The translations under genes were made by a program, and so were the position numbers. From contig CAKRIZ010000019.1 in the NCBI GenBank assembly GCA_934351445.1, forward strand, positions 1-34,640: a DNA stretch of 34,640 bases, in the 5' to 3' direction. The notes beneath the pieces were generated by a model that was given only the letters and a program-made list of their open reading frames with translations, made no database searches and was not told the DNA's origin. The stretch is from an uncultured Eubacterium sp. Lineage in GTDB: Bacteria; Bacillota; Clostridia; Lachnospirales; Lachnospiraceae. Shown here piece by piece: positions 17,101 to 25,505 of this stretch. How positions within the stretch are numbered: the stretch's first letter is position 1; each line of letters begins with the position of its first letter.

Positions 17101-17280
17101 TCATTGTATTGTGATTATATCATATTTGTGTAGAAATACATATCCATAGTTCCTTTTTTACTTAATTCTGCAACGGAATCATAAAAATGACAAAAAAGCT
17201 GGAAATCAGCTCTGCCCCCGCTGTATAATAGGCGAAGAAAATAAATAACCGGAAAGTGAAACTTGAGAGAGGTACTTACA

Positions 17281-18972
17281 ATGACAAAAAAATGGTGGCA
17301 TGACAAAGTCGCATATCAGATCTATCCGAAGAGCTTCTACGACAGTAACGGAGACGGTATCGGCGATCTGCGCGGCATTATTTCAAAATTAGATTATCTG
17401 AAGCAATTAGGCATCGATATAATCTGGCTCTCGCCGATCTACAAATCACCCTTCGTTGACCAGGGCTATGACATCTCCGACTATTATGCAATTGCAGAAG
17501 AATTCGGCACGATGGAAGAATTCGACGAATTACTCGCAGAAGCAAAAAAGCGTGACATGTACATTATCATGGATCTCGTGATCAACCACTGCTCCGACAA
17601 GCATGAATGGTTTCAGAAAGCTCTGGCTGACCCGGACGGTGAATACGCGGACTACTTCTATTTCCGTGAGGGAAAAGACGGCAATCCTCCCAGTAACTAC
17701 CGCTCCTATTTTGGCGGAAGCTGCTGGGAACCGGTGCCCGATACCAACAAATACTATTTTCACATGTTCGCCAAAGAGCAGCCGGATCTCAACTGGGAGA
17801 ATCCCACTGTACGGCAGAAGCTGTATGATATGGTCAACTGGTGGCTCGATAAAGGTCTGGCAGGGTTCCGCATCGATGCGATCATCAACATCAAAAAAGA
17901 TCTGGACTTTACCGATATAGAGCCGGATGGCTCCGATGGACTGGCAAGCTGCTTTAAGATGGTAGACCGTGTGACAGGCGTTGATGAGATGCTGGAGGAT
18001 CTAAAAATAAATACATTCCAGAAATACGATGCATTTACCGTCGCAGAAGTATTTAATATGAAAGAGGGCGATCTCGCCAAATTTATCGGTGAGAACGGCC
18101 ATTTTTCCACGATCTTTGATTTCAGTGCACATCTGCTCACCGAGCACGGTGAACACGGCTGGTATGATGCACCTGCACCGGACTTCAAAAAATGGCGCGA
18201 AACCATCTTTTACGCTCAGCGCGAAGCACAGGATTGTGGTTTCCGGGCAAATATTATCGAAAACCATGATGAACCGCGTGGTGCGTCACGCTATCTGCCG
18301 GAATATGCCCAGACTCCGGATGGTATCAAGATGCTTGGCACGGTGAGTATCCTGCTGCGTGGTATTCCGTTTATCTATCAGGGGCAGGAGATCGGCATGA
18401 AAAACGCCATCTGGGACAGTGTCGATGCGTTCAACGACATCAATACCAAGGATCAGTACCACATCGCACGTGAGGCAGGACTGAGCGACGCGCAGGCACT
18501 GGACGTGTGCAACCGGCTCAGCCGTGACAATGCAAGGACTCCGATGCAGTGGAGTGATGACGCCAATGCCGGATTTACGACCGGTACACCGTGGCTGCCG
18601 GTAAATGCCAATTATCAGACGACCAATGTCGCTGCACAGGAGACAGATGCACATTCGATCCTCAACTATTACCGGCAGCTGACCGCTGTCCGCAAATCTC
18701 CCGAATATAAGGATGTATTTACTTATGGCGAATTTGTACCCACATATGAGGATACCGATACAGTCATGGCTTATTACCGCAAAGACCGCGAATCAGGCCA
18801 GCGCATCCTCATAGCCGCCAACTTTGGTGCAGAGCCTGTGACCCTGACACCGGAATATCCGGCGCAGCGCGTGATCCTGTCTAACATGGGCCGCACGGAC
18901 TGCCCGGATCAGACTCTTGTACTGGAGAGTTGTGAAGTGATCGTGCTGGAGATGAGGCTCCCGCAATCGTAA
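17281..18972 (+). CDS. GH13 alpha-glucosidase (oligo-1,6-glucosidase type)
   Basis: A 563-residue cytoplasmic glycoside hydrolase family 13 enzyme, subfamily-31-like, hydrolysing alpha-glucosidic bonds of short oligosaccharides (isomaltose, maltose, possibly sucrose). The start reads VAYQIYPKSFYDSNGDGIGD. Catalytic residues are Asp199 (GFRIDA), Glu256 (VAEVFN) and Asp330 (ENHDEPR), with MDLVINHCS as the first conserved region. ATG 17281 is preferred, with GAGAGAGG upstream; an in-frame TTG at 17263 is possible. A TATAAT lies at 17224-17229, without a good -35. The last 92 bases overlap a convergent membrane-protein gene. Confidence 0.94.
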   Translation: MTKKWWHDKVAYQIYPKSFYDSNGDGIGDLRGIISKLDYLKQLGIDIIWLSPIYKSPFVDQGYDISDYYAIAEEFGTMEEFDELLAEAKKRDMYIIMDLVINHCSDKHEWFQKALADPDGEYADYFYFREGKDGNPPSNYRSYFGGSCWEPVPDTNKYYFHMFAKEQPDLNWENPTVRQKLYDMVNWWLDKGLAGFRIDAIINIKKDLDFTDIEPDGSDGLASCFKMVDRVTGVDEMLEDLKINTFQKYDAFTVAEVFNMKEGDLAKFIGENGHFSTIFDFSAHLLTEHGEHGWYDAPAPDFKKWRETIFYAQREAQDCGFRANIIENHDEPRGASRYLPEYAQTPDGIKMLGTVSILLRGIPFIYQGQEIGMKNAIWDSVDAFNDINTKDQYHIAREAGLSDAQALDVCNRLSRDNARTPMQWSDDANAGFTTGTPWLPVNANYQTTNVAAQETDAHSILNYYRQLTAVRKSPEYKDVFTYGEFVPTYEDTDTVMAYYRKDRESGQRILIAANFGAEPVTLTPEYPAQRVILSNMGRTDCPDQTLVLESCEVIVLEMRLPQS

Positions 18973-19972
18973 AATGCGCGACGATCGTGAGCAGCGCAGA
19001 TAATAATAGCTCGGTATAGTAGCTGAGACCCCTGCTGAGTACCATTCCGGGGAGTAGGAGTCTCGCTCCGAATACCGGAACAAATATTGTCAAAAACAGT
19101 TTTTCGCTGATGCCCATGCCACCCGGCAACGGCAGCATATCGACAGAAATCGAGATCACCGCCTGCAGCAGCATGATCGTCATCACTGAATACCCGTGTA
19201 ATCCAAATGCACGATACACAAAATAAGTCGATAAAAACAACGCAAACCGCTGTGCAAACGTGATCAGCAGCACATTCACTACCACATGCTTATGTGTCTT
19301 AAAATATTCTGCCGTCTCCCGATATTTCGTCATTCCATGTTCCAGCACTTCATGACGGCTCTTCTTATAACGCAGGAGATGTATCTTTTCCAAAAAACAC
19401 AATCCTCTGCCAAGGATCTTCCCCGCCAGAGTCGTGTGGAATACGAGCAGCATCATGAATCCGACGCATCCTACATTCAGCAGAATACCGAGCAGAAACA
19501 CCGGCATGATCCCGGTCAGATAAGCATGTATAAACGACTGCCCAAATACGAGCAGACCCAGCCCGACCAATACGAGCACTGCCTTATAGGTAATAGTGAT
19601 CACCATAAGAACGAGCGTTGCGACTGGAATCGGTATATCCTTTTTCTTCATATAATAGATCTGCGCAGGTTGTCCTCCGGTCGCTGAGGGCGTGATGCAG
19701 CTAAAGAAAAATCCCACCGATGAAAACAAAAAACAAGTCCATTTCTTCAGGCGGATACCCAATGTTCCCATCATGTAATATATGATGATCGACTCACCCC
19801 AGATAAAAAAGAGTACACAAAAAACAGCCGGAATCAGGTATCTCTTTTGCACCTGTCCGATGATCTGTATGCTCTGTCTCCAGTCCTCGCCATGAAACAC
19901 GCCATAGACCGTTCCGGCAAATACGACGACCAGAAACAATATTTCCCAAAGCAGTTTTTTCTTCTGTCTCAC
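18881..19972 (-). CDS. YbhN/UPF0104 membrane protein (MprF flippase-domain family)
   Basis: A 363-residue polytopic protein with about eight hydrophobic segments and the family landmarks FFSCITPSATGGQPAQIYYM (about 90-110) and VDMLPLPGGMGISEKLF (about 285). The family covers the lysylphosphatidylglycerol synthase/flippase membrane domain. The synthase half is absent, so lipid translocation is the plausible role. It starts with GTG at 19972, GGAG 6 bases upstream, 28 bases after the kinase gene. The last ~30 residues are hydrophilic and read antisense through the glucosidase 3' end, so they are probably a recently acquired tail. It ends the phospholipid/two-component operon. Confidence 0.85.
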   Translation of the reverse strand: MRQKKKLLWEILFLVVVFAGTVYGVFHGEDWRQSIQIIGQVQKRYLIPAVFCVLFFIWGESIIIYYMMGTLGIRLKKWTCFLFSSVGFFFSCITPSATGGQPAQIYYMKKKDIPIPVATLVLMVITITYKAVLVLVGLGLLVFGQSFIHAYLTGIMPVFLLGILLNVGCVGFMMLLVFHTTLAGKILGRGLCFLEKIHLLRYKKSRHEVLEHGMTKYRETAEYFKTHKHVVVNVLLITFAQRFALFLSTYFVYRAFGLHGYSVMTIMLLQAVISISVDMLPLPGGMGISEKLFLTIFVPVFGARLLLPGMVLSRGLSYYTELLLSALLTIVAHFTIAGASSPARSLHNSPVQESDPGSPCGPC

Positions 19973-20000
19973 ATTCTACTCCATTCCACGCATACTACAC

Positions 20001-21320
20001 CTAACACTTCGGAAACATCAACGTGATCATATATACGCTCTCCGTCTGCTCCACACTGCAGATTCCATGCATGCGGTTCATCATCGTCCGGATGCTTTCG
20101 ACACCGATGCCGTTACTCTCTATCACAGTCTCCGGCTCATCCTCCGGTGTACATACATTCAGCACAGAAAATCCACTATATCCGTCTGCATCGATCGAAT
20201 CGACCCTGATCTCGTCCACAGTCTTCGAATATTTTACGATGTTAGAAGCGATATTTTCAAGTATCCGGTGCATGTATTCTCTGTTGATCTGCACAAAACA
20301 GGGGCTCCATGACAAGTTCAGACATACCGCATATCCACGCGCCTGCAGCTCATCCCGAAAATCCCGCAACAGATCCATGACAGCCGGCTCCATGCGCATC
20401 GGCTCTGCCTGTTTTTCAGCAGTGTGCTCCAGCGAATACTCAAATAAATGATCGGAGATGACCTTCATGTGATGCGCCTTGGCAGCTATTTTTTCCAGAT
20501 AATCCTGTAATTCCTCCTCAGTTGTATAGCGGTGTGAACGCAGGATCTCCAGATACAGCATGATGCCGGTCAGCGGTGTGCGCAGATCATGGGACATCTC
20601 CGTGATCAGCTTCCGGTTCGCCAGATACAACTGCTGTTCGTTCTCCATCTGCTGCTGAAACGAGAGGCGCATCCGGTTCATACTGTTTGCCAGATCCGTA
20701 AGCTCATCATTGCCTTCTACCGACACCTCATACTCCAGATTGCCGCCTTCCAGGATCTGCACTTCATCATTCAGACGACAGATATAGCGGATCAGTTTCC
20801 GGTTGCTGTACAAAAAGATTAGCACAAATACGATCAATGAAATAAGGATCGCCATAACGGTCGTGACCGTATGGTAGCGGTAAGTAAAATCTGAGTACAG
20901 CACCGCCTGCACCGTCATATCCGCCAGCCTGATCTCTATGAGATCATCCAGTTCGTCCGGCTCATAATAGCCGCTCTCATTCTGCGTATTATATCCATCA
21001 TTATAAGAACTGTAGATACAATAATCTCCGTTATACAGTTCCAGCAGAATGATCGGCTGGCGTTTCTCCCATAGTTCTAATTGCGACAGATCTTCACTGG
21101 AAATATTGTTTTCGTCTATAAAATTCTGCAGGTTTTCCGCCTGCCGCTCGATATGTTTCTCCTTAAAATCCGACTGCGTAAAATAATCTGTCAGGCAATA
21201 ATCCGTGGTATAATACAGCCCCACAAACACGACCGCGCACGCAAGCGCCGAACATACCAATGTCAGCACAAACCGCACACGCAGTCCGTATGGTCTAAAA
21301 TTCAGTTTTTTCTGTCTCAT
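20001..21320 (-). CDS. Sensor histidine kinase
   Basis: A 439-residue two-pass kinase: membrane segments at about 16-38 and 152-172 flank an extracellular domain of ~110 residues rich in Asp, Glu and Tyr. A HAMP-like linker precedes HisKA with His244 in EMSHDLRTPLTG. The ATP-binding domain has the N-box NIASNIVKY but a shortened lid and no classical DxGxG (LNVCTPEDEP then NGIGVESI), a form seen in several Clostridia kinases. Its start overlaps the response-regulator gene by 26 bases, so they are a translationally coupled pair. The acidic sensor could read cationic peptides or divalent cations; that is inference only. Confidence 0.92.
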   Translation of the reverse strand: MRQKKLNFRPYGLRVRFVLTLVCSALACAVVFVGLYYTTDYCLTDYFTQSDFKEKHIERQAENLQNFIDENNISSEDLSQLELWEKRQPIILLELYNGDYCIYSSYNDGYNTQNESGYYEPDELDDLIEIRLADMTVQAVLYSDFTYRYHTVTTVMAILISLIVFVLIFLYSNRKLIRYICRLNDEVQILEGGNLEYEVSVEGNDELTDLANSMNRMRLSFQQQMENEQQLYLANRKLITEMSHDLRTPLTGIMLYLEILRSHRYTTEEELQDYLEKIAAKAHHMKVISDHLFEYSLEHTAEKQAEPMRMEPAVMDLLRDFRDELQARGYAVCLNLSWSPCFVQINREYMHRILENIASNIVKYSKTVDEIRVDSIDADGYSGFSVLNVCTPEDEPETVIESNGIGVESIRTMMNRMHGICSVEQTESVYMITLMFPKC

Positions 21321-22017
21321 AGCGGTATCCTTTTCCCCAGATATTTTTGATATACACAGGATTCTGCGGATCGTCCTCGATCTTTGTCCTCAGCTTTCTG
21401 ATATGCACCATGATCGTACTGTTCGCGCTGTAGGTATAAGTCTCTCCCCAAACGCTCTCATAGATCATATGTGTCGAAAAGACCCGCTGCGGATGCTGGA
21501 TCAACAGTGCCAGTATCTTATACTCGATCTCTGTCAGATCCAGCGGCATGCCATCTTTCCAGACCTCGTTGCGGTCAAGTGCAACTCTCAGACGCCCGGA
21601 TGTCAATATCTGATCCGTGTCCATCGACATCGCCTGTTTTTTTCCGCGATACACACAATATCTGCGCAGCTGCGCCTTCACACGCGCGATAAGCTCCGCA
21701 TAGGAGAACGGCTTGGCCAGATAGTCATCGCCTCCCGCCATCAGTCCGAGCGTCTTATCGGATTCCTGTGATTTTGCTGTCAGAAAAAGGATCGGCACGG
21801 TAGAGGTCTTCCGGATCTCTTCGCAGACCTTCAGACCTGATATTCCCGGCAGCATAATATCTAAAATGACCAGATCGACCGCCTCATTGATCTGTGCCAG
21901 CGCTTCCTCTCCGGTCGCCGCCTCCAGCACGACATATCCTTCTCCTCCCAGAAGGATTCGGATCCCTTCACGGATCGAAGGCTCATCCTCAACGACTAAT
22001 ATCACCTGTGAACTCAC
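21295..22017 (-). CDS. OmpR-family response regulator
   Basis: A 240-residue regulator. The receiver (1-120) has the acidic pair at 10-11 (VVEDEPS), phospho-acceptor Asp53 in ILDIMLPG, LTAKS and the Lys in DDYLAKPF. A winged-helix DNA-binding domain follows at about 140-235 (LDLTEIEYKILALLIQHP, then VHIRKLRTKIE). It starts with GTG 22017, with GAGAGGT upstream, 4 bases from the PAP2 gene stop. It most likely acts on its own operon, where tandem repeats precede pssA. Confidence 0.94.
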   Translation of the reverse strand: MSSQVILVVEDEPSIREGIRILLGGEGYVVLEAATGEEALAQINEAVDLVILDIMLPGISGLKVCEEIRKTSTVPILFLTAKSQESDKTLGLMAGGDDYLAKPFSYAELIARVKAQLRRYCVYRGKKQAMSMDTDQILTSGRLRVALDRNEVWKDGMPLDLTEIEYKILALLIQHPQRVFSTHMIYESVWGETYTYSANSTIMVHIRKLRTKIEDDPQNPVYIKNIWGKGYRYETEKTEF

Positions 22018-22021
22018 GTGA

Positions 22022-22678
22022 TTACCTCTCTTTTTTTATTTTACCCAGACCTGCCCTGTGCCTGCAGCCACCAATAGTTCCCGCGCACAGCCAGCTCACC
22101 TCTGCCAGTATGATTCCTGCCGCCACATCCGCGATCACATGCTGCTTAACTGTAAGCGTACTCACGCATACAGCCACCGTCATGACAAGCGAAGCTGCCT
22201 GATACCATCGGGGTATACGCCGGTTCCCTCTCACGCCGATCCAGCAGAGCCAGCTCACAAAACAATGGATCGACGGCAGGAGATTGTCCGCCGCATCGAC
22301 CGCATAGGTCAGCGCGACGAGTCTGCTCCAGATATCGTCTCCTGTGATCTGCGGCCGTACCATGGTGGTCGGATACAACACAAAAGTCAGAAAACACACC
22401 GTTTCTCCGATAAAATGCGCAAGGATCATCCGGCGTTCCCCGCGCTCGTCCCAGGCAACGCCCAGACAGTAATTGGCGATCCAGTACAGATAACATCCCC
22501 AGTATATGAGGATCATCCACGGCACAAACGGTATCGCATGATCAAGTGCCGTCGACAGATCTGCATGCACCCCGGCACCTGACAGGTACCGTCCCAGATT
22601 GTAAATCGAAAAATTATAGACTACTGCCGCGATCAGCCACAACAGATCCTTTTTTGTCAGGAAACAACGCTCATGCAT
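22022..22678 (-). CDS. PAP2-superfamily membrane protein (Aur1/inositolphosphotransferase-like)
   Basis: A 218-residue protein with about six membrane segments. PAP2 catalytic motifs are visible: FVLYPTTMVRP (motif 1 region), LLPSIHCFVSW (motif 2 with PSxH) and KQHVIADVAAG (motif 3, with the nucleophilic His and the Asp). The arrangement is closer to the Aur1-type PAP2 branch, which transfers phospho-headgroups, than to soluble acid phosphatases. It overlaps the psd stop by 8 bases. A role in removing or exchanging a phospholipid headgroup next to phosphatidylethanolamine synthesis is inferred from context. Confidence 0.8.
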   Translation of the reverse strand: MHERCFLTKKDLLWLIAAVVYNFSIYNLGRYLSGAGVHADLSTALDHAIPFVPWMILIYWGCYLYWIANYCLGVAWDERGERRMILAHFIGETVCFLTFVLYPTTMVRPQITGDDIWSRLVALTYAVDAADNLLPSIHCFVSWLCWIGVRGNRRIPRWYQAASLVMTVAVCVSTLTVKQHVIADVAAGIILAEVSWLCAGTIGGCRHRAGLGKIKKER

Positions 22679-23489
22679 GTCGTAACGCTCCTATGATCTC
22701 TCCCATTTTCACCGGGATCTCGATCCCTTTACCATAGCACATCCGAACCGGCAGTGACAGCTCCAGACGGTTTTTCGCCTCTTCCGGCAATAATAAAATG
22801 ATCGTCGAACCCGCCAGTTCAAAACGACCCATCTCCTGTCCTTTTTTGAGCGATCCGCATGTTTTGGCGAATGTCACACCCCCGACCAGCATCGCGCCCA
22901 CCTCGATCTGTACGGCTGTACCAAAATGCTCTGTCTCCAGAACACTCCACCATCTCCGGTTCAGACGGTATACGGGCACAGTCTCGCAGGCGATCGGCTG
23001 CACGCTGTGAAGCTGTCCCTGAATAAAATGTGCCTCTGACATAAAACAGTCATCAAAACTGCAAAAATGGTGGTAGTCACTCGCCTGCAGCCGGAAAACC
23101 AGACATAAGCCATCCCGGAACATCTCAGCCATTTTACGCTCCGGCAGCAGATCGGCCAGCCGGTAATATGAACCTTTCATCGACAGATTCATCCCCCTCG
23201 TGACCGGATAGACAGACAGCAGACCATCACACGGACTGATCAGGCAGCCCGGATCCGTATGTTCCACAGAGCCATCCCGAAATCTCGCGAAAAAATCCGC
23301 AAAAGACGCATACTGCTGACCACGAAAATCACGCATATCGATCTTATATTTTCGGATATAATGCGGTATCAAAAGACGGGACACCCGCGTGTGCAGCAAT
23401 CCTGCCGCGACACGAAACAGTCCCATATTCTGCAGGATCTTCAGGCCGGCTCGTCCGGCCGCCGTGCGGTAAAAAATATCTACACTCAT
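22671..23489 (-). CDS. psd: Phosphatidylserine decarboxylase proenzyme
   Basis: A 272-residue enzyme that converts phosphatidylserine to phosphatidylethanolamine at the membrane. It self-cleaves before Ser in the GST motif (FELAGSTIILLL, about residue 228), giving a small alpha chain with a pyruvoyl cofactor. Other conserved elements are SPCDG, the catalytic His region SDYHHFCSF, and EVGAMLVGGV. Start ATG 23489 has an AGGGG site ~8 bases upstream. It lies 12 bases after pssA. Confidence 0.94.
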   Translation of the reverse strand: MSVDIFYRTAAGRAGLKILQNMGLFRVAAGLLHTRVSRLLIPHYIRKYKIDMRDFRGQQYASFADFFARFRDGSVEHTDPGCLISPCDGLLSVYPVTRGMNLSMKGSYYRLADLLPERKMAEMFRDGLCLVFRLQASDYHHFCSFDDCFMSEAHFIQGQLHSVQPIACETVPVYRLNRRWWSVLETEHFGTAVQIEVGAMLVGGVTFAKTCGSLKKGQEMGRFELAGSTIILLLPEEAKNRLELSLPVRMCYGKGIEIPVKMGEIIGALRHA

Positions 23490-23501
23490 ATCATTTCCCC
23501 T

Positions 23502-24113
23502 CTAGCTTCTTACAAATAACTGGCCGATCAGACACAGCTTTGCGGTCAGCTGCGGCTTTTTGATCTGAAACGGCAGCAAAAACAACACAGCCATGACAGC
23601 CAGAACGCCCGCCATACCGACATAAGACTGTACGCCGAACCGGTTCGCCAGCCAGTAGATCACCGGTACAAACACTGCAGACAATGTGACCGGCATACCG
23701 TAATATACTTTTCTGCCCTCTGTTGTACTTTTCTGCCGTTCCTGCTCATCTACATTAAAATATGCCAGACGCATCAATGCACACAATACATAGACGGCAG
23801 CGACACCCAGAACCACACGGTTGTATTTATTCAGATTATATATGATCGATGCGGGCAGTACACCAAAACAGATCAGATCACTGAGCGAATCGATCTGAAT
23901 ACCAAAACATTTTTCACGGCTGTCTCTCTTTTTCGTCGATGCGATCGTTCCGTCGAACATATCACACACCCCTGCGATCATCAGACAGACCACTGCGCGC
24001 GTAATATTCTCTTCAAACGCATATACCACACCCAGAAATCCGGTCAGCATCCCTATGTAGGTCAGCACGACCGTGTAATTATAATACCCCAGCAATTTTT
24101 GTTCCTTATTCAT
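23502..24113 (-). CDS. pssA: CDP-diacylglycerol-serine O-phosphatidyltransferase
   Basis: A 203-residue integral membrane enzyme making phosphatidylserine from CDP-diacylglycerol and serine. The CDP-alcohol phosphotransferase motif is present: DMFDG (Asp51, Asp54) ... FGIQIDSLSD (Asp75, Asp79). The usual DGxxAR reads DGTIAS, and the spacing to the second half is a few residues longer than the common pattern. ATG 24113 is preferred, 8 bases from GGAG; a GTG two codons upstream is too close to it. It is the first gene of the pssA-psd-PAP2-RR-HK-flippase operon. Confidence 0.92.
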   Translation of the reverse strand: MNKEQKLLGYYNYTVVLTYIGMLTGFLGVVYAFEENITRAVVCLMIAGVCDMFDGTIASTKKRDSREKCFGIQIDSLSDLICFGVLPASIIYNLNKYNRVVLGVAAVYVLCALMRLAYFNVDEQERQKSTTEGRKVYYGMPVTLSAVFVPVIYWLANRFGVQSYVGMAGVLAVMAVLFLLPFQIKKPQLTAKLCLIGQLFVRS

Positions 24114-24168: not shown

Positions 24169-24225
24169 ATCATAACGATAAACGTGGAAAAAAACCCTCT
24201 TAAAATTCTTAAAAATTCTAAAGAG
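24169..24225 (-). promoter_or_regulatory. pssA promoter with three tandem response-regulator-type repeats
   Basis: Minus-strand -10 TATGAT is at 24169-24174, but the position 17 bp upstream (24192-24197, GGGTTT) does not resemble a -35. Immediately upstream, plus-strand units TCTTAAAA (24198), TCTTAAAA (24207) and TCTAAAG (24217) repeat at 9-10 bp, one helical turn. Such an array over a defective -35 is typical of OmpR-family activators and fits the regulator encoded in this operon. Confidence 0.55.
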
Positions 24226-24287: not shown

Positions 24288-25505
24288 ATGAACATAGATG
24301 TCATGGGGCTGATCGGAGCATGCTCCTATGCACTGGACTGTGTCGAGGCAGAACTGACACAGGTCACCAATCAGCACTCCAAACGTGTCGCCTATCTGAG
24401 TGTCTGCATCGCGGAGCAGATGCACATTCCGGAACGCGAGTTACAGGATCTGGCAGTCTGTGCCCTGCTGCATGACAATGCGCTGACACAGTATATCCGC
24501 GAGGAGCTGCACGGCGATATTACTTCTACGGCACCTGCATCAGGCAGACCACTGATCGGTATTCACTGTTCCATGGGAGAATCGAATCTAAAGCACCTCC
24601 CATTTCTCACGGATGTCAAAGATGTCATTCTGTATCATCACGAGAACGCAGATGGCAGCGGCCCGTTTGGAAAAACATGGCAGGAGATCCCCCTGTTTGC
24701 ACGGATCATCCACCTGTGTGACCTGTTGGATGTCTATTGCCGTGTCAGGACGTTCACCGCTGACACCTGGCAGAAAACAAAACATTTTTTAAGCGAAAAC
24801 ACGGATACGCTCTTTGACGCGGCATGCATCCAGGCATTTTTTGCTGCGTTTACAGAGGCGCATTTCTGTTCACTCGGTGATGATGATCTGGAAAAACGCC
24901 TGTGGTCTAAGATCCCCCGGATCAGACAGGAGCTTAGCTTTTCACAGATTCAGGCGCTGGCAGACTTTTTTGCGCGCATCGTAGACTACAAATCCCCGTT
25001 CACGAGCACACATTCCATCGGGGTTGCCACGGATGCACAATTATTAGCGCGCTATATGGGATTTGATGAAGAAACGGTGGAAAAAATGTATCTGGCGGGG
25101 GCATTGCATGATATTGGGAAAGTAGCGATCGGCAATGAAATCCTCGAAAAACCGGATCGGCTGACAGATGAAGAATTTGCCGTAATGAAGCATCACGCCG
25201 CATATACTTATTATATTTTATCAGATGTGGAAGATTTCGAAGAAATCCGCGACTGGGCAGCCTTCCATCATGAGCGTCTGGACGGTAGCGGCTATCCGTT
25301 TAAAAAGACTGCTGCCGAGTTAAATACGCAGGAACGCATGATGGCTTGCGTCGATATCTATCAGGCGCTGACCGAAAGCCGCCCGTATAAAAAGGGCATG
25401 CCACATGAAAAAGCCAGCGCGATTCTGCATGATATGGCAGATCGCGGCTGGCTCGACCGTAAAATCGTCGCAAAGGTCGACGGCTGTTTTGGCACTGCAT
25501 CATAG
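24288..25505 (+). CDS. Double HD-domain protein, C-terminal HD-GYP
   Basis: A 405-residue cytoplasmic protein with two HD domains. The C-terminal one (about 225-400) is a full HD-GYP unit: HSIGVATDAQLLA, ALHDIGKVAI, KHHAAYTYYIL and HHERLDGSGYPF, the signature of cyclic di-GMP phosphodiesterases. The N-terminal one (about 20-160) is degenerate: HSKRVAYLS, LLHDNAL and HHENADGSGPFG, with GPF where GYP should be. It probably degrades or senses a cyclic dinucleotide, with the first domain regulatory. Start ATG has CGGAGGA upstream. It is divergent from pssA and convergent with the CinA gene, 19 bases apart, with no clear terminator. Confidence 0.88.
   Translation: MNIDVMGLIGACSYALDCVEAELTQVTNQHSKRVAYLSVCIAEQMHIPERELQDLAVCALLHDNALTQYIREELHGDITSTAPASGRPLIGIHCSMGESNLKHLPFLTDVKDVILYHHENADGSGPFGKTWQEIPLFARIIHLCDLLDVYCRVRTFTADTWQKTKHFLSENTDTLFDAACIQAFFAAFTEAHFCSLGDDDLEKRLWSKIPRIRQELSFSQIQALADFFARIVDYKSPFTSTHSIGVATDAQLLARYMGFDEETVEKMYLAGALHDIGKVAIGNEILEKPDRLTDEEFAVMKHHAAYTYYILSDVEDFEEIRDWAAFHHERLDGSGYPFKKTAAELNTQERMMACVDIYQALTESRPYKKGMPHEKASAILHDMADRGWLDRKIVAKVDGCFGTAS

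Follow-up and report, generated by a model that had tools for sequence, protein, structure and literature searches.

The window, a 34,640-nucleotide stretch of DNA from an uncultured Eubacterium sp. of the Lachnospiraceae (contig CAKRIZ010000019.1, positions 1 to 34,640), contains six open reading frames (ORFs), all on the minus strand, that run from position 24113 to 18881 and encode, in transcription order, PssA, Psd, a PAP2 protein, a response regulator (RR), a histidine kinase (HK), and a YbhN protein. PssA and Psd are enzymes of phosphatidylethanolamine (PE) synthesis, and the YbhN protein is a candidate lipid translocase. The genes and the elements upstream of them are listed below with the basis for each assignment; loci, genomes, and database proteins used for comparison carry L, G, and P numbers, respectively.

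23502..24113, minus strand, PssA-type CDP-diacylglycerol-serine phosphatidyltransferase (PSS); Pfam, NCBIfam
22671..23489, minus strand, Psd, phosphatidylserine decarboxylase (PSD); Pfam, NCBIfam
22022..22678, minus strand, PAP2 protein with probable SMSr/Aur1-like fold; sub-threshold Pfam match, alignment, structural matches
21295..22017, minus strand, OmpR-family RR; Pfam, NCBIfam
20001..21320, minus strand, sensor HK with acidic outside loop; Pfam, loop composition
18881..19972, minus strand, YbhN / LPG_synthase_TM protein with MprF flippase fold; Pfam, NCBIfam, structural comparison
24206..24222, minus strand, direct-repeat box TTWAGAW-N3-TTAAGAW, candidate RR binding site; pattern search
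24169..24174, minus strand, -10-like hexamer TATGAT, 31 nt after the box; sequence inspection

According to the coordinates, the successive junctions are a 12 bp gap, an 8 bp overlap, a 4 bp gap, a 26 bp overlap, and a 28 bp gap. Because no gap exceeds 28 bp and two junctions overlap, the six genes are likely to form one transcript, and the initial annotation, which had proposed an operon of these six genes at this place, agrees with their strand and tight spacing. Its assignment of the adjacent first two genes to PE synthesis also holds at the family level: the PSS matches CDP-OH_P_transf at 51.5 bits and the pssA model at 99.9, slightly below the cut-off of 107, and the PSD matches PS_Dcarbxylase at 136 bits. 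The YbhN protein exceeds both of its cut-offs (LPG_synthase_TM, 120.6 bits against 33.4 in Pfam; TIGR00374, 62.5 against 43.2) and has the fold of the MprF flippase domain by structural comparison, whereas a sequence search of solved structures (E up to 1) returned nothing for it. LPG_synthase_TM is the sole Pfam match in its 363 residues, the aminoacyl-phosphatidylglycerol synthase domain being absent. The last 92 nt of its ORF (18881-18972) are antisense to a convergent trehalase-type gene (17263-18972); this fusion of both 3' ends looks genuine, because a database protein of the same 363 residues, 99% identical and representing 47 sequences (P0121), has the same length, while the YbhN proteins of the relatives tested terminate earlier.

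The PAP2 protein scores below the Pfam gathering thresholds (23.1 against 27 for PAP2_3 and 22.3 against 27.2 for PAP2), and 233 relatives were found, with precomputed PAP2 domains on many of the close ones. Its His-His-Asp residues H138, H180, and D184 are invariant in 34 of the 34 aligned relatives. A sequence search of solved structures (E up to 10) gave nothing for this protein; structurally it matches SMSr, inositol phosphorylceramide (IPC) synthase, and Aur1 best, along almost its full length but at 10-13% identity, in line with the Aur1-like enzyme first suspected. It thus resembles the SMSr/Aur1 phosphotransferases and may be a transferase. A sphingolipid role was considered from two loci in which PAP2 follows a gene resembling serine palmitoyltransferase (L014 and L015), and was dropped because NCBIfam names the L015 genes as glycine C-acetyltransferase beside threonine dehydrogenase.

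The RR contains Response_reg and Trans_reg_C domains and is 82-87% identical to the RRs of three other loci (L001, L009, and L007). The HK contains HisKA and HAMP domains with a weak ATPase match, and the acidic extracellular sensor domain that had been noticed corresponds to a predicted outside loop of 108 residues with 24 D+E and 6 K+R (net -18); the loop is less acidic in three close homologues (net -10, -7, and -12).

We searched the GTDB genome set with a PAP2-family profile, retained the best 80 of 358 confirmed loci, and classified the neighbouring genes by profiles grown from the window proteins. In 60 of the 80 loci, PSS and PSD genes are both found no more than 4.5 kb from PAP2. A frequent additional gene, found in 39 loci in a first clustering and often encoding a product of about 190 residues, stands ahead of PSS or separates PAP2 from PSS, and all five products tested carry a VTT (DedA) domain. 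In 10 loci YbhN takes the place of VTT, and the seven of these that have a whole core are ordered PAP2-YbhN-PSS-PSD. The PSS-PSD-PAP2-RR-HK block of the window recurs in L001, L007, and L009; the order is VTT-PSS-PSD-RR-HK in L067 and L069, where PAP2 is on the opposite strand, and in L026 and L075 a divergent RR-HK pair adjoins VTT-PSS-PSD. The expectation that the set would co-occur elsewhere is borne out for its sub-sets, which are widespread, but not for the exact six-gene order, seen in none of the 80 loci, none of which has YbhN after HK either.

Among 61 core clusters, the window included, VTT is present in 45, YbhN in 8, neither in 8, and both in none, after two loci (L080 and L069) had been reassigned from neither to VTT on closer classification. 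This count leaves out seven loci where PAP2 has just one of PSS and PSD nearby (VTT 4, YbhN 2, neither 1) and 13 where PAP2 lacks both (VTT 1, YbhN 1, neither 11); one of the latter 11 (L053) has a partial YbhN at the end of a contig. No VTT ORF is near the window operon, and none above 150 bits occurs anywhere in the window. Each translocase family can also be joined to a partner: PAP2 and VTT are one ORF in L080; a 554-residue protein with YbhN and PSS domains (P0226) is known as a single sequence in which an assembly fault is possible; and P0221 is a second YbhN-PSS protein, its PSS lacking the first part. In 80 whole genomes, with thresholds set after the scores had been seen (at least 190 bits for a PetA-like VTT, at least 390 bits for a same-class YbhN), we found a PetA-like VTT in 54 and a same-class YbhN in 12; two genomes carry both (G007 and G022, the VTT of G022 being broken), and 16 carry neither, 5 of these having no PSS match either.

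The association of YbhN with PE genes was followed in two sets of related genomes. In 117 relatives of G007, all eight YbhNs of at least 579 bits adjoin PE-operon genes, seven beside PSS and one beside PAP2 at a contig end (L147), whereas none of the 22 weaker YbhNs fetched (200-290 bits) is within 1.5 kb of such genes; 21 weaker matches are outside this comparison, and two of the eight (G006, G007) come from the first set. Among the 30 YbhN loci of 61 G012 relatives, 7 are beside PSS/PSD or PAP2 (L114-L118, L123, L130), with YbhNs 26-47% identical to that of the window. A YbhN-PSS-PSD arrangement with a distant YbhN occurs in G030 (L105), and in G021 a YbhN adjoins a 40-bit PSS fragment. Separately, other-class YbhN genes adjoin a response-regulator gene (143-247 bits) in L120, L122, L125, and L136. 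Further PSS genes were also seen: a solitary second copy in G032 (L109:5328-5960), whose genome also has a complete VTT-PSS-PSD-PAP2-RR-HK operon, and, by eye, another kind of PSS-PSD cluster (L184:541-7124; L183 similar) with UbiA-like, CDP-archaeol-synthase-like, diacylglycerol-kinase-like, and phosphoenolpyruvate (PEP)-synthase-like genes.

A 70-row PSS tree places the window PSS in a supported group of 13 (VTT 9, none 3, window 1). The YbhN label needs three changes on the tree, three being forced by supported branches, with a warning from the tree program that long branches come together among the YbhN rows. One member of the group of 13, L001, has an operon without VTT in a genome with a YbhN 75% identical to that of the window; G092 has PSS-PSD-RR-HK without an adjoining VTT and a YbhN 71% identical on another contig. 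Because the window PSS nests among VTT-type PSSs and because of the pattern in L001 and G092, the translocase of the window lineage seems to have changed family, the new one being, in the window, the last gene of the operon.

The direct-repeat box suggests how the operon may be controlled. Searched in a longer form with up to two mismatches, it has one match in the window (24206-24222), where 0.03 is expected. In the 1.125 Mb of the 80 loci and the window, TTWAGAW-N3-TTAAGAW has 12 exact matches, all at PE operon starts (34-87 nt upstream of the first called ORF in 11; overlapping the called start in L069), and the reversed pattern used as control has 2. A matrix built on the 12 boxes (score at least 13) gives 50 further matches, 16 of them operon-upstream, a region that is 1.4% of the sequence, the loci being related. 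A hexamer agreeing with TATAAT in at least five of six positions follows all 12 operon boxes at 30-32 nt, a spacing chosen after viewing the 12 promoters; in a later check, it recurs at 1 of 30 box matches located elsewhere in G037 relatives. A box so placed upstream of the -10 is where an OmpR-type activator would sit. The RR-HK pair is present in six of the 12 box loci and absent from six, and two of the eight loci with the pair (L026 and L075) carry only TTCAGA variants.

A count over 11 genomes gives 21 exact matches, 11 of them at PE operons; since the reversed pattern gives 10, the 10 matches elsewhere may mostly be fortuitous. Two genomes with a PE operon lacking the RR-HK pair (G038, G039) have another box between an RR-HK pair and the YfhO genes, with a 31-nt spacing to a hexamer toward YfhO; the RR is 51-52% identical to that of the window, and the locus holds YfhO, GtrA, and glycosyltransferase family 2 (GT2) genes in G039 according to Pfam and is alike by eye in G038. 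G037, from which L009 comes, has a single box besides that of the PE operon; it precedes dltABCD (NCBIfam), 65 nt before dltA and with a 31-nt spacing; the dlt link is this one case. Among 61 relatives of G037, 28 have a box match, with control counts of similar size in several. A box common to the RR/YfhO locus of two genomes and the dltABCD operon of one agrees with the inducible envelope theme of the initial annotation. As side observations, the region with the box in the window separates the operon from a divergent gene for a double HD (HD-GYP-like) protein (24288-25505), and two of the 10 matches outside the PE operon, in G034 and G041 (L110:3161-3177, L098), precede genes that look by eye like malic-enzyme genes, while another in G041 precedes a gene that looks HlyD-like by eye.

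We hold it to be reasonably probable, from gene content and neighbourhood, that the locus is a regulated operon for PE synthesis and export in which an MprF-type YbhN translocase replaces a VTT protein of the PetA kind (PetA being YbfM of Bacillus subtilis). PssA and Psd, whose families are identified, would make PE on the inner leaflet, and YbhN would carry it to the outer leaflet, the presumed job of the PetA-kind DedA/VTT protein in most related operons; we infer this role because the two families exchange, because fusions occur, and because of the fold. PAP2 is expected to act on the outer face, where we tentatively suggest that it takes the phosphoethanolamine headgroup from exported PE or cleaves it. 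The two-component system of the operon would sense an envelope signal and activate transcription via the TTAAGA direct-repeat box, and the cell surface would become less negatively charged.

Several observations weigh against this reading. A PSS match is missing in 5 of 36 genomes with a PAP2 of this family; the eight core clusters with neither translocase do not fit, and Ligilactobacillus ruminis (G016, G018; L036, L058) has PSS-PSD-PAP2 with neither translocase at our thresholds. The absence of VTT covers the window, and a VTT elsewhere in its genome is possible. In G007, G164, G183, and G199 the YbhN is in the operon, yet an orphan PetA-like VTT is kept (in G007 at L104:6579-7241), perhaps as a relic or second translocase, and in G012 and G092 the top-class YbhN is located outside the PE operon. 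NCBIfam names none of the five VTT proteins tried, and PetA-like is meant here as a class label. A search of 25 genomes found a true DltA (at least 337 bits) in five, with a box before dltA in one and no good box in the other four; the box precedes dltA in one of three genomes with both a true DltA and a close RR-HK pair, and L. ruminis (L036, L058) has a true dltA without it.

For PAP2, an ordinary lipid phosphatase, acting on phosphatidylglycerophosphate (PGP), phosphatidic acid (PA), or undecaprenyl pyrophosphate (C55-PP) with no headgroup transfer, is a serious if doubtful alternative. For YbhN, we consider it unlikely that the protein acts as a general scramblase or transports a lipid other than PE, namely phosphatidylserine (PS), phosphatidylglycerol (PG), or the PAP2 product, YbhN and VTT then being interchangeable since both relieve the leaflet imbalance from one-sided bulk lipid synthesis and neither is PE-specific. 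The PAP2 gene overlaps or adjoins the translocase gene in PAP2-YbhN-PSS-PSD loci, and Pseudomonas aeruginosa MprF moves alanyl-PG (AlaPG), lysyl-PG (LysPG), PG, phosphatidylcholine (PC), and PE in vitro with little selectivity (PMC11980842); against this, the top YbhN class tracks PSS (the 8/8 versus 0/22 above) and YbhN can be fused to PSS. That YbhN merely hitch-hikes with PE genes within a few related lineages, and is functionally uninformative, is quite improbable: most YbhN-type PSSs are in one tree clade, so that the counts are not independent, and G012 and G092 carry the gene elsewhere, but supported branches force three changes on the PSS tree (subject to the long-branch warning), several gene orders occur, and even YbhNs 26-47% identical to the window's adjoin PE-operon genes.

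If the locus is such a synthesis-and-export operon, gene neighbourhoods point to a likely cargo, PE, for an MprF-type stand-alone flippase; the envelope-charge response of Bacillus (PE and dlt) would seem to exist in gut-type Clostridia too, run by a different switch and a different translocase; and it would include a PAP2 enzyme, a possible modifier of exported PE. A wider, speculative proposal, which we think rather unlikely in its entirety, is that this YbhN class in Lachnospiraceae and relatives consists of dedicated PE exporters that replaced the unrelated PetA more than once, that exported PE feeds an outward PAP2 phosphoethanolamine transferase decorating surface lipids or polymers, and that the HK, through the TTAAGA-repeat box, co-ordinates this with D-alanylation of teichoic acids (dlt) and with YfhO/GtrA glycosylation genes.

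Among known systems, the best NCBIfam matches of the RR-HK pair are the VanR and VanS models, but both are far below the curated cut-offs (223 against 350 and 80.8 against 400) and the target genes differ. SMSr, IPC synthase, and Aur1 are the best structural matches of the PAP2 protein, at 10-13% identity, and a conserved His-His-Asp is common to them. Stand-alone MprF-type flippase domains are common and their cargo is mostly unassigned; compared with MprF and the stand-alone YbhN/TIGR00374 proteins, the window YbhN is without a synthase domain and set in a PE operon. The earlier description as the translocation half of MprF is right as to fold, while a stand-in for the DedA/VTT protein of the operon is a better description than a lone MprF half. 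E. coli YbhN has been noted close to cardiolipin genes (PMC11980842). The initial annotation knew of no such set, but B. subtilis pssA-ybfM-psd is a published stress-regulated PE operon, under sigma-X/sigma-V control as is dltABCDE (PMC8144471, PMC5063857). A VTT/YbhN exchange or the six-gene set was not found described in the literature covered, which mostly excluded subscription papers and preprints. The locus stands as an operon and, we infer, as an envelope system, with a novelty narrower than first thought. It is like the B. subtilis operon in combining PSS and PSD with a lipid-translocase gene, in its proposed stress control, and in control shared with dlt, the last seen in one related genome (G037); it differs in having a translocase of another family (YbhN, not DedA/VTT), in the presence of a PAP2 gene, and in a two-component system that appears to stand in place of an extracytoplasmic function (ECF) sigma factor. 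What sets it apart from PE operons already known is that its translocase appears to have been exchanged for a non-homologous one and its control to have passed to a two-component system.
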